NCBI RefSeq assembly: GCF_001429605.1
Contig: NZ_LMSS01000004.1
Location: 310,001 to 374,000 of the forward strand
Source: Phycicoccus sp. Soil802
GTDB taxonomy: Bacteria > Actinomycetota > Actinomycetes > Actinomycetales > Dermatophilaceae
Length of the DNA stretch: 64,000 bases
Direction: 5' to 3'
The notes beneath the pieces are model-generated. The model did no database searches. It was not told the DNA's origin and worked only from the letters and a program-made list of their open reading frames with translations. The translations under genes were made by a program, and so were the position numbers. Below are positions 57,769 to 60,694 of the stretch, piece after piece (within the stretch, counting starts at the first letter, position 1; the number at the start of each line of letters is the position of its first letter).

Positions 57769-58449
57769 GTCCGCAAGCTGGCCGCGCTCGAGGATGCGCA
57801 CTGGTGGTACCGCGAGCGGCGCCACCTGTTGGGCCGGATGATCGGCGGGCTGCGTCCCGGCACCGCGCTCGACATCGGCGCGGCCGGTGGCGGCAACACG
57901 CGCGTGCTGCGCCGGGCCGGCTGGTCGGTCAGCGCGCTCGAGTACGGCGCCGACGGGGCCGAGGTCGCTGCCGAGCGCGGTCTCTCCGTGGTGCGGGGTG
58001 ACGCCACGGCGTTGCCGGTGAGCGACGACAGCCTCGACCTGGTCGTGGCCTTCGACGTGCTCGAGCACATCGTCGACCACGACACCGCCGTGTCCGAGGT
58101 GCGCCGGGCCCTGCGCCCAGGTGGGATGTTCCTCATCGCGGTGCCCGCCGACCCCAGGCTGTGGTCGGACCACGACGTGGCGGTCGACCACGTGCGCCGC
58201 TACACCCGCGACACGCTGCGTGCGGTCCTGGAGCGGAACGGGTTCGAGGTCGCCTCGATGACGTCCTGGAACGTGCTGCTGCGTCCGGTCGTCGCCCTGC
58301 GGCGGCGCAAGGCGAGCGGCTCGGACCTCGAGACCGTGCACCCCCTCGTGAACCTGGGCCTGCGCGCGATCGTGACGGCCGAGCGCTACCTGCCGCTGAA
58401 GGCTATGCCCGGCGTGACGCTGATGGTGCGGGCTCGTCCGCGGCGGTGA
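57754..58449 (+). CDS. Class I SAM-dependent methyltransferase
   Basis: Methyltransferase of 231 aa. Residues 9-22 (LAALEDAHWWYRER) are typical of the sugar/lipid methyltransferase group, motif I is ALDIGAAGGGNTRVLRRAG (about 38-56), the acidic loop is in ALEYGADG, and motif post-I is LVVAFDVLEHIVDH. The acceptor substrate is unknown. The only start consistent with the N-terminus is TTG 57754. The 3' end overlaps the convergent glycosyltransferase gene by 47 bp. A role in envelope glycan or lipid modification is inferred from the neighbour. Confidence 0.8.
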   Translation: MEGTEVRKLAALEDAHWWYRERRHLLGRMIGGLRPGTALDIGAAGGGNTRVLRRAGWSVSALEYGADGAEVAAERGLSVVRGDATALPVSDDSLDLVVAFDVLEHIVDHDTAVSEVRRALRPGGMFLIAVPADPRLWSDHDVAVDHVRRYTRDTLRAVLERNGFEVASMTSWNVLLRPVVALRRRKASGSDLETVHPLVNLGLRAIVTAERYLPLKAMPGVTLMVRARPRR

Positions 58450-59383
58450 CCGGCCCCGTGAGCGAGTCGTAGGCGACGAAGTAGGTCGGTCGGGCCTGCA
58501 GGTGCGCGTACATCCGTCCGACGTACTCGCCGAGGATCCCGACGCACAGCAGCTGGACCGCCCCCACGCCGGCAACCGCCACGACCGTGGACGTCCAGCC
58601 CGGGAGGGTGTGGCCCAGGGAGGCGGCGACCAGCGCGTACGCGAGCAGGCCCAGCGCCGCGAGGCCGCCGAGCAGGCCCAGCCAGGTGGCGGCGCGCAGG
58701 GGAGCGGTGGAGAAGCCGGTCACGCTGTCGAGTGACAGCCGGATCATCTTGGACAGCGGGTACTTCGAGCTGCCCGCCGCCCGCTCGTCCCGCCGGTAGG
58801 TGACCGAGGTCGACGGGAAGCCCAGGGCCGGGACCACGAAGCGCAGCACCCGGTGGTGCTCGGGCAGCGAGTTGATGGCGTTGACGGTCGCCCGCGACAT
58901 CAGCCGGTAGTCGCCGGCGTCGACCTGGGCGTGGGTGCCCGACAGCACGCGGATCACCCGGTAGAAGGCCTTGGCGCTGAGCCGCTTGAAGGCCGAGTCG
59001 CTGGAGCGGTCGGACCGCACGCCGTAGACGACGTCGGCCCGCTGGGCGCGCGCCTGGGCGAGCATCTCGGGGATCACCTCGGGCGGGTCCTGCAGGTCGG
59101 CGTCGAGCGTGACGACGTAGTCGCCACGGGCGCTCGCGAGCCCGGCCGAGATGGCGGCCTGGTGACCGGCGTTGGCCCGCAGCCGGACGATCCGCAGCTG
59201 CGGCCAGTCACGCATCAGCCGCTGGAGGACTGCGGGGGACAGGTCGTCGCTGCCGTCGTCGACGGTGATCACCTCGTAGGTGGCGCCGAGCCCGTCCGCC
59301 ACGGGTCGCAGCCGCGCGGCGAGCAGGGGCAGCACGTCTTCCTCGTTGTACACGGGGATGACGATGCTGAGCTCGGGGGCCAT
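58403..59383 (-). CDS. Family 2 glycosyltransferase with C-terminal membrane helices (GtrB/DPM-like)
   Basis: Polyprenyl-phosphate sugar transferase-like protein of 326 aa. The GT-A domain starts with LSIVIPVYNEEDVLPLLAAR, has TVDDGSDDLS, the metal motif in TLDADLQDPPE (about 93-103) and QVDAGDYRLMSR. Two C-terminal transmembrane helices (about 233-260 and 265-290, then YVGRMY) match the GtrB/Ppm-like group that loads undecaprenyl phosphate. A TAACCT -10 lies six bases before ATG 59383, giving a leaderless message. It overlaps the convergent methyltransferase gene. Confidence 0.88.
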   Translation of the reverse strand: MAPELSIVIPVYNEEDVLPLLAARLRPVADGLGATYEVITVDDGSDDLSPAVLQRLMRDWPQLRIVRLRANAGHQAAISAGLASARGDYVVTLDADLQDPPEVIPEMLAQARAQRADVVYGVRSDRSSDSAFKRLSAKAFYRVIRVLSGTHAQVDAGDYRLMSRATVNAINSLPEHHRVLRFVVPALGFPSTSVTYRRDERAAGSSKYPLSKMIRLSLDSVTGFSTAPLRAATWLGLLGGLAALGLLAYALVAASLGHTLPGWTSTVVAVAGVGAVQLLCVGILGEYVGRMYAHLQARPTYFVAYDSLTGPVTAADEPAPSASRRA

Positions 59384-59389
59384 GTCCCA

Positions 59390-59395
59390 AGGTTA
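59390..59395 (-). promoter_or_regulatory. -10 element of leaderless glycosyltransferase promoter
   Basis: On the minus strand TAACCT lies six bases before ATG 59383. Confidence 0.5.
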
Positions 59396-59419
59396 CGGGG
59401 ACAGGCCACGTCGACACGC

Positions 59420-59457
59420 AAAGGTCTCTAGAAGCAAAGGTCTCTAGAAGCAAAGGT
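59420..59457. repeat. 2.4 tandem copies of a 16-bp unit
   Basis: AAAGGTCTCTAGAAGC occurs twice in succession (59420-59435, 59436-59451), followed by AAAGGT. It is unusually AT-rich for this genome and abuts the 14-bp stem-loop at 59458. Confidence 0.85.
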
Positions 59458-59492
59458 GAGGGCCCCTCGAAGTATGAGTTCGAGGGGCCCTC
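59458..59492. terminator. Perfect 14-bp stem-loop at the left end of the hairpin array
   Basis: GAGGGCCCCTCGAA / TTCGAGGGGCCCTC with a 7-nt loop. Its position fits termination of a minus-strand transcript through the array, upstream of the glycosyltransferase promoter. Direction is not proven. Confidence 0.6.
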
Positions 59493-59560
59493 GGGTGGAG
59501 ATCCTCCCGGCCGCTGGCAGAACCAGCAGCTGGGCGGATCGCCGGGTGCGGAGTCCGGCG

Positions 59561-60049
59561 CCACCGAGGTGGTGCCCTGTCCGCTGCGGGACACCCGGCC
59601 GCCGAAGCGGCCTGGTCTCCCACGTGTGGTGTCGGTGTCACCCCGCCGAAGCGGGTGCGGTGTCAGCCACGGGGTGCGGGTCCTGTCGTCACCGAGGTGA
59701 CGGCACTTCCCACGTGCGGGTCCTGTCGTCACCGAGGTGACGGCACTTCCCACGGTGCGGGGTCGCTCGCCACCGAAGTGGTTCACGGCTCCACGTGTGG
59801 TGTCGGTTTCCCCACCGGAGTGGGTCTGTTGTCGGCCACGGGGTGCGGGCTGCCCGGTCACCGAAGCGACCTGACGTCCCACCAGCAGGCTTCGTCCTCA
59901 CCGAGGTGACGGCGACCCCCACTGTTGGTGCAGCTCCCTGGGCCGGCGAACCGCCCCACGGTGCTGCCCCGTTCGACCGCCCACGCCCCCCGGCGAACCG
60001 GGTGTTGTGGCCACTGCGACGGTGGCGCCTGGTCGCTCCGGCGAACCGG
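59561..60049 (-). repeat. Array of about twelve small hairpins with UUCG/CUCG/UCCG loops
   Basis: The gene-free region 59384-60460 (1077 bp) contains this array. Tetraloops begin at + positions 59565, 59603, 59647, 59693, 59733, 59774, 59816, 59862, 59902, 59947, 59994 and 60042, that is, every 38-48 bp. On the + strand the cores are CACCGAGGTG, CGCCGAAGCG, CACCGAAGTG, CACCGGAGTG and CGGCGAACCG. Stem pairs change together (A-T to G-C, C-G to T-A), showing selection for pairing. On the minus strand the loops are UUCG (7), CUCG (4) and UCCG (1), mostly closed by C-G. Spacings are not multiples of three, so it is not coding. Confidence 0.8.
59674..59753. repeat. Exact 40-bp tandem duplication inside the array
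   Basis: Positions 59674-59713 and 59714-59753 are identical, each holding one CGTCAC-CGAG-GTGACG hairpin. It is the only perfect repeat of the array, hence probably recent. Confidence 0.9.
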
Positions 60050-60253
60050 TGCGGCCAAGGCGATGCGATCTGGCCAACGGGCCCGGCGTTCCTCCGCGGC
60101 GTCGCCCGCGAACCTGTCTGCCCGAAGGCTTCGAGGACCTCGTCCGAGCGAACCCGGTCGAGGCGGTCGTCCGTTATCCGGTTGACCTGTGCTCCTGCCT
60201 CGTGGCCGTCCGAGTCTCCTCGTCTCGACCCTCCGACTGGAGCGCGTGAGAGA

Positions 60254-60283
60254 TTTCTAGTGGCCCGATCCGTTGTGCCGCAA
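60254..60283 (-). promoter_or_regulatory. Candidate minus-strand promoter leading into the hairpin array
   Basis: On the minus strand TTGCGG (60278-60283), 18 bp, TAGAAA (60254-60259) directs transcription towards the array. No start codon with a ribosome site and continuing frame follows, so a noncoding RNA would result. A chance match is possible. Confidence 0.3.
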
Positions 60284-60303
60284 TAGGTTTCGCGCACCTT
60301 TTT

Positions 60304-60393
60304 CTGTCCACGGGTTTCCCACACGGTTGTCCACACCCGGGTGTGCGCAACGCACAGGTTGTGCACACCCCTGTGCACAACATCCGTGGACAG
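60304..60393. other. Cluster of DnaA-box-like sequences with dyad symmetry
   Basis: Within 90 bp are TTGTCCACA (60327-60335, the actinobacterial consensus), TTGTGCACA (60359-60367), TTGTGCACA on the minus strand (60372-60380) and a near-match on the minus strand, TTGCGCACA (60342-60350). The set is framed by the inverted repeat CTGTCCACGG (60304-60313) and CCGTGGACAG (60384-60393). It is not oriC: no dnaA or dnaN is adjacent. A DnaA titration/regulatory site controlling the next gene is possible. Confidence 0.65.
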
Positions 60394-60447
60394 CGCGGGC
60401 TTGCGCAGCCCGACGGTGATGGTCGCGGGGAGGGGGTCGGCGGCAGG

Positions 60448-60453
60448 TACGCT
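60448..60453 (+). promoter_or_regulatory. -10 element of leaderless promoter for the small membrane protein gene
   Basis: TACGCT lies seven bases before ATG 60461 and 55 bases after the DnaA-box cluster. Confidence 0.5.
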
Positions 60454-60460
60454 GTGGGGC

Positions 60461-60694
60461 ATGTCGTCGTCTGCCTTCACCCTGGTCACTGCCGCCGAGG
60501 AGCACACCCGCGAGCTGCCGATGTCCCCCTACGCGTTCGGGGCCATCGCCATGGTCGCGTTCCTGGCCCTCCTGGGCGTGCTGTGGTTCTTCCGCGGCGT
60601 GGCGACCAAGGTCGCGACCGGCGGAGCCCACGGCACGCATGCGTCGGCCGGCCACCACGACGCCCATGCCGACCACCAGGGCAGTCACCACTGA
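60461..60694 (+). CDS. Small single-pass membrane protein upstream of nadD
   Basis: Protein of 77 aa. One transmembrane helix ([20 protein letters not shown], about 25-44) is followed by a basic turn and a His-rich tail ([18 protein letters not shown]) that could bind metal or simply be low-complexity. No family is recognised, though a short membrane protein before nadD is common in this group of actinobacteria. The start is supported by the -10 position. Its stop is two bases before the nadD ATG, so both are probably transcribed together. Confidence 0.75.

Follow-up and report, generated by a model that had tools for sequence, protein, structure and literature searches.

In Escherichia coli, datA and DARS are noncoding DnaA-binding regions situated outside oriC. 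In actinobacteria, structured intergenic noncoding RNAs (ncRNAs) of 0.2–0.5 kb have been described, namely Ms1 of mycobacteria and Streptomyces, which shows weak sequence conservation, a 6S-like fold and a location defined by its HAD-hydrolase neighbourhood (PMC9130861), and CoRP of Corynebacterium glutamicum, a 516-nt RNA flanked by tRNA genes and found via its binding to RNA polymerase (RNAP; PMC11077062). In Caulobacter crescentus, the ncRNA CcnA is linked to replication-control DNA with DnaA boxes (PMC8959179). The Ms1 paper makes no mention of DnaA, and the CoRP paper mentions neither DnaA nor nadD. Here we describe a predicted ncRNA gene located near nadD in a stretch of 64,000 nucleotides of Phycicoccus sp. 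Soil802 (contig NZ_LMSS01000004.1, positions 310,001 to 374,000), hereafter the window. Like Ms1, it would be an actinobacterial, intergenic and structured RNA with weak sequence conservation, and like CoRP it falls in the size range of about 0.5 kb. Unlike Ms1, as that RNA is described, it lies at other loci and appears to have a multi-branched consensus with a loop–loop pairing, and unlike CoRP, again by description, it was found neither between tRNA genes nor via RNAP. With CcnA it shares the link to DnaA boxes, differing, as that RNA is described, in its larger size and structure, its location on a contig other than that of dnaA and the phased DnaA-box module that precedes it. It resembles datA and DARS as a noncoding, putatively DnaA-binding region outside oriC and differs from them in having its boxes linked to a structured, conserved RNA and to the promoter of that RNA.

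On the basis of sequence comparison, the locus probably encodes an independent, structured, trans-acting ncRNA under DnaA control, with a repeat-expanded 3′ array. The initial annotation had noticed an array of about twelve covarying tetraloop hairpins in a gene-free region of about 1 kb, which indeed measures 1077 bp (59384–60460) and is bordered by a GT2 glycosyltransferase open reading frame (ORF) on one side and a small ORF before nadD on the other. That array (given as 59561–60049) is present, and the feature to which it belongs runs beyond those limits, with a conservation peak beside the array at approximately 59900–60400; what had been seen was only the variable 3′ tail, while the 5′ core, the promoter, the terminator-like hairpin and the DnaA-box module lie outside it. 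The array would thus be the 3′ domain of a minus-strand ncRNA of about 0.8 kb (coordinates in Table 1). When the genus is aligned, DnaA boxes and promoter come first on the minus strand, followed by a 5′ domain of roughly 240 nt, then by the hairpin tail and finally by the terminator-like hairpin. The promoter consensus is TTGC(C/A/G), an 18-nt spacer and TAGA(A/C)AT, and the gene spans 337–909 nt from the −10 element to just beyond the terminator-like hairpin in 11 genomes. The region was found at the same place in the own genome and in all 10 other same-genus genomes searched, each with YNCG-loop hairpins.

Covariation in the core argues for an RNA rather than a DNA element. The RNAalifold structure of 11 core sequences, which was derived from the same sequences used for counting, pairs in 98.4% of cells, with both-sided changes in 7 of 39 pairs (shuffle mean 3.6) and in 20 cells (shuffle mean 6.5), a level reached in none of 500 shuffles. 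As a control, the same structure slid by 1–3 columns paired in 31–50% of cells. Read as the minus strand, the core pairs comprise 33 G.U cells against 2 A.C, which identifies the minus strand as the RNA strand. Additionally, the loop GCGACG of one hairpin (this sequence in most rows) is complementary to the loop CGUCGC of a later one. This pairing, which relatives in other genera share, was counted across 23 of 25 family sequences, leaving out L166, identical to L044 over the stretch, and L058, whose loops are complementary in a shifted register. When the first hairpin's stem is included, it pairs in 96% of cells and shows both-sided changes in 8 of 12 pairs (3 of 6 for the loop pairing alone), which none of 500 shuffles attained; slid versions paired in 16–60% of cells. 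The loops of L033 are complementary variants lying outside the aligned register of this count. In the RNAalifold consensus the core is multi-branched and closed by an outer helix, which competes with the loop–loop hairpin, and the whole RNA is predicted to fold with unusual stability (z −6.4; 20 shuffles). The suggestion that selection acts on the structure of an undescribed RNA is accordingly well supported, by homologues at the same locus, double-sided changes in the core, minus-strand wobbles and the lack of an Rfam match. Specifically, a search of the window against Rfam 15 gave no match at the gathering score except a tRNA, and a search of seven loci at E up to 5 returned only tRNAs together with chance matches below threshold, of which none covering the RNA attained the cut-off of the family concerned.

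The second line of evidence concerns the putative DnaA-box module, arranged as box, box, inverted box, about 25 nt and a further inverted box. The strict word TT[AG]T[CG]CACA occurs only three times in the window, always within 60327–60380. The same box words are found at the dnaA locus of the own genome (L219), and boxes of the host's oriC type stand at the predicted promoter. The module is on contig C4 and dnaA on C2, which places this DnaA-box cluster outside oriC. nadD could be located in 58 of the 59 family genomes; the comparison drew on 30 of these loci and on 40 further regions (20 from the family, 20 from the order). By model score, 18 of the 70 nadD loci carry the RNA, that is, 18 of 50 in the family (two of them in the genus itself) and none of the 20 from elsewhere in the order. 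All 18 match the layout with at most seven mismatches (17 with at most five), and the best match has at least eight mismatches at 51 of the 52 RNA-negative loci. The distance from the module to the −35 element is 67–68, 76–78 or 87 nt at 17 of the 18 positive loci, in steps of 10 bp; none was found in L056.

The module also leads to relatives of the RNA elsewhere in the order. When 198 order genomes were searched with the module alone, a match was obtained in 27, compared with 0 for the reversed control. The promoter pattern was present at 22 of the 30 module loci (5 of them in the window's family), at 76–78 nt (18 loci) or 67 nt (4 loci), and the motif GGANAACG followed the module in 21 of 30 loci against 6 of 246 background pieces; L225 was left out of the motif count, its only match being inside a DnaA box. 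The core model R2 scored E < 0.04 at 10 of 25 other-family module loci, 3′ of the module and on the same strand. In the class, 7 of 296 genomes matched the module, three of them outside the order; in those three (L253, L254, L255), which lie at unrelated places, the module, the promoter and GGAGAACGG can be made out by eye, as can a terminator-like hairpin, with R2 support for L255 only (E 0.004). A similar unit sits at another locus in L069 (family f13; E 0.005 in its genome). Since these module-borne relatives sit at unrelated loci, module and RNA occur together at different positions.

Regarding the covariance models of the RNA, R2 was trained on R1 matches (L033, L035, L039, L043, L044, L045, L048, L051, L053, L055, L057, L058 and L059), so that its scores at these loci hold by construction. 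With R1 alone, three of the 18 positives score weakly (L053, L055 and L058, with E of 0.033, 0.087 and 0.056), and the other 15 reach E < 0.01, 12 by R1 and three (L034, L056, L097) by R2 untrained on them. Searching 248 order genomes in full with R2, by a tool whose filters lose weak matches, gave 10 positive genomes. Over 36 chosen genomes, R2 gave matches at E up to 1 in 13, and 5 of the 15 matches were below 0.01, four of them in R2-training loci. In a contig pattern scan, 80 listed of 94 stretches were rescored and 12 were at E < 1e-7; the relatives at this level, among the matches listed, comprised 2 Pedococcus, 7 Phycicoccus, 1 Nostocoides, 1 Dermatophilaceae bacterium and 1 Micrococcales bacterium.

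Several results weigh against this interpretation. Further pair types in the core are within the shuffle range (158 of 500 shuffles as high), the core alone has an ordinary folding energy (z −1.2; other strand −0.8), and the tail stems by themselves do not favour the minus strand (5 G.U against 11 A.C, mostly in the outermost pair of the stem). In the loop pairing, every double change comes from a single sequence (L056, L048 and L057 carry one each), the loops of L097 are unpaired, and those of L034, L035, L039 and L149 pair partly. At 52 of the 70 nadD loci examined, the RNA was not detected; at many of these the GT2 start is close to the small gene and leaves no space for it. One of the 52, L049, has the module with 1 mismatch and, by eye, the promoter and the GGATAACG motif, with an R2 score of only E 0.29. 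The promoter pattern is missing at 8 of the 30 module loci and the GGANAACG motif at 9. Finally, no clear U run follows the terminator-like hairpin of the window.

Taken as a mechanism, DnaA would probably bind the five-box module, 5′ of the promoter in a fixed helical phase, and its binding would set the amount of RNA made from that promoter on the minus strand up to the terminator-like hairpin. Activation is probable and is favoured over repression, because the boxes lie about 20–110 nt 5′ of the −35 element and the helical phase is kept. Because a fixed DnaA-box cluster precedes the promoter, the arrangement suggests that synthesis of the RNA follows the cell's replication or growth state. 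The 5′ core would fold as a multi-hairpin unit held by the loop–loop pairing and carrying the GGANAACG motif, and the YNCG hairpins would form a rigid tail, amplified in the window's genus. As the neighbours of the RNA gene change, the RNA presumably acts in trans. Whether these features define an actinobacterial ncRNA class, in which the gene and its helically phased DnaA-box module form one unit, the initiator serves as a dedicated transcription factor and, in Pedococcus, the YNCG array is tunable and multivalent, is in our judgement evenly balanced. If true, the replication initiator would directly control a conserved trans-acting RNA in actinobacteria, linking chromosome replication to RNA-based regulation. 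In the open-licence papers searched, we came across neither this RNA nor a class of ncRNAs controlled by DnaA. The module pattern combined with the core model offers a practical means of finding the RNA.

The tail in the window consists of hairpins whose loops start 38–48 bp apart and read UUCG, CUCG or UCCG on the minus strand, as first noted. Applying a strict rule (at least 4 Watson–Crick pairs and a 4-nt loop), the minus strand of 59550–60055 contains 12 tetraloop hairpins, 10 of them YNCG, whereas 500 dinucleotide shuffles averaged 0.2 YNCG hairpins and reached 3 at most. On the plus strand of the same interval YNCG accounts for 1 of 12 strict tetraloop hairpins, and in the remaining 59.4 kb of the window for 34 of 505. 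The count of about twelve given earlier holds for 11 hairpins (CGAA, CGAG or CGGA type in the plus-strand reading) with stems of at least 4 pairs, one stem containing an internal G.U when read as the minus strand; the twelfth (59943–59952) has, by direct reading, just 3 inner pairs. The stems do vary between copies with pairing retained, with the qualification that only 8 different inner 4-bp stems occur among the 63 YNCG hairpins that the 11 genomes contain. The closing pair, described as mostly C-G, is C-G in 38 of the 63, G-C in 24 and A-U in 1. Allowing wobbles in the stems, the loops in the 11 genomes (L001–L011) are UUCG (26), CUCG (24), UCCG (11), CCCG (1) and CACG (1), and the tails hold 11, 7, 13, 4, 8, 5, 4, 2, 2, 3 and 4 YNCG hairpins, respectively. 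This number exceeds all 200 shuffles in 9 of the 11 genomes and is reached by 2 shuffles in L008 and 11 in L009. Such close relatives amount to a natural experiment in which one RNA carries anywhere from 2 to 13 stable tetraloop hairpins.

The tail may shield the RNA or give one protein several binding sites. It is also possible, if somewhat doubtful, that it is a neutral tandem expansion by slippage and that only the core matters. The change in copy number between close relatives and two adjacent units of the window that are almost identical (59673–59761) speak for slippage, whereas the loops stay YNCG in all 63 hairpins while the stems change with pairing retained, and other genera keep, by direct reading, one or few such hairpins at the same place. 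Other readings of the array were rejected. The 38–48 bp units and the 1- and 2-base gaps in the core alignment speak against a coding array; a CRISPR array, judged on the repeats with cas genes left unsearched, does not fit units that differ in stems and length, only two neighbours being near-identical. The repeat family offered as an alternative in the initial annotation, such as a dispersed palindromic repeat of the REP or BIME type, did not hold up, the own genome showing, among the matches listed, the locus itself and one 30-nt match. A literature search on UUCG arrays gave no lead. A second, less regular set of hairpins alternates with the YNCG ones over 59580–59960; these are of the CCCGCA(C)n-GUGGG type on the minus strand, with 0–3 extra loop C residues by direct reading.

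A rather unlikely alternative is that the RNA is of the Ms1, 6S or CoRP type, binding RNAP and setting its level or activity, with the DnaA boxes merely tuning expression. Its length, structure and single copy fit an RNAP-binding RNA, Ms1 and CoRP are actinobacterial precedents, and Pedococcus and Phycicoccus are among the genera with Ms1 candidates (PMC9130861). However, the neighbourhood by which Ms1 is defined in that paper is absent here: the flanking genes are GT2 or proA at one end and, at the opposite end, the small gene and nadD. The two best of the three HAD-IB loci of the genome (L250, L251) contain no module and no motif. Ms1 by locus was rejected on these grounds. The consensus, whose outer closing helix competes with the loop–loop hairpin, appears to be multi-branched rather than a single long hairpin with a bubble. 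Identity with the Pedococcus or Phycicoccus candidate of that paper is likewise unlikely, the two being set apart by the locus as described.

We regard as improbable that the DNA itself is the functional element, a datA- or DARS-like site titrating or converting DnaA, with transcription and RNA being secondary. What such a site would display is seen here, namely five DnaA boxes that keep a fixed layout, located outside oriC and on a contig other than that of dnaA. Against it, the RNA core covaries and its loops pair, the boxes hold their helical phase to one promoter, and module and RNA share their pattern of presence and absence. A long cis-acting 5′ leader of the GT2 gene, although on the same strand and immediately 5′ of it, is very improbable and was rejected on the genus alignment and the differing neighbours elsewhere: a terminator-like hairpin intervenes, a TAnnnT −10-like word stands just 5′ of the GT2 ATG in the genus, the neighbour in L043 (G017) is by eye a proA-type gene with no GT2 match, and the neighbours at other loci are unrelated.

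Table 1. Predicted features of the ncRNA locus and neighbouring genes (window coordinates)
Feature	Position	Strand	Remarks
DnaA-box module, five boxes	60304–60393	−	putative, by sequence words
Box CTGTCCACG	60385–60393	−	putative
Box TTGTGCACA	60372–60380	−	putative
Box TTGTGCACA	60359–60367	+	putative
Box TTGTCCACA	60327–60335	+	putative
Box CTGTCCACG	60304–60312	+	putative
Promoter	60253–60283	−	predicted from genus alignment and phased distance to module; −35 TTGCGG 60278–60283, 18-nt spacer, −10 region TAGAAAT 60253–60259
5′ domain of RNA	60011–60247	−	predicted start near A60247; alignment A1, 85% mean column identity; RNAalifold
Core with GGAUAACGG motif	60061–60189	−	modelled as R1/R2
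First loop–loop partner hairpin	60093–60112	−	loop GCGACG (60100–60105)
Second loop–loop partner hairpin	60010–60026	−	GCCAC-CGUCGCA-GUGGC; loop CGUCGC (60016–60021)
YNCG array	59555–60049	−	variable 3′ tail of RNA; about 12 tetraloop hairpins alternating with CCCGCA..GUGGG-type hairpins
Terminator-like hairpin	59458–59492	−	14-bp perfect stem, loop CTCATAC (minus strand)
GT2 glycosyltransferase ORF	58403–59383	−	neighbour, outside RNA
Small ORF before nadD	60461–60694	+	neighbour, divergent; ATG 60461

Some further observations were made around these features. Two module copies about 230–260 bp apart are found in three f14 genomes (G180:C1:4022238/4022494, G167:C11:122279/122534 and G112:C1:3273142/3273376). 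A DnaA-box-like cluster lies at another locus of genome G033 (L019:1440–1560), the nadD locus of which (L106) has no RNA. One module match is followed 3′ by a pattern that we take to be glycine-riboswitch-like (L221:1500–2000), and this match is probably unrelated. The CTCATAC loop recurs, on different stems, in terminator-like hairpins of other contexts across the family and order (L013, L014, L015, L016, L022 at approximately 1500–1545, and L013:1773); it is therefore no marker of this RNA and may characterise a general type of terminator in actinobacteria. The direct repeat GCAAAGGTCTCTAGAA (59418–59457), which follows the terminator-like hairpin and precedes GT2, comprises 2.5 perfect 16-bp copies and is unconserved in the genus alignment. 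Finally, genus-conserved TAnnnT −10-like words are situated just 5′ of the ATGs of GT2 and the small ORF (59384–59396 and 60450–60460), and since they stand a few bases before both ATGs, the two genes look leaderless.
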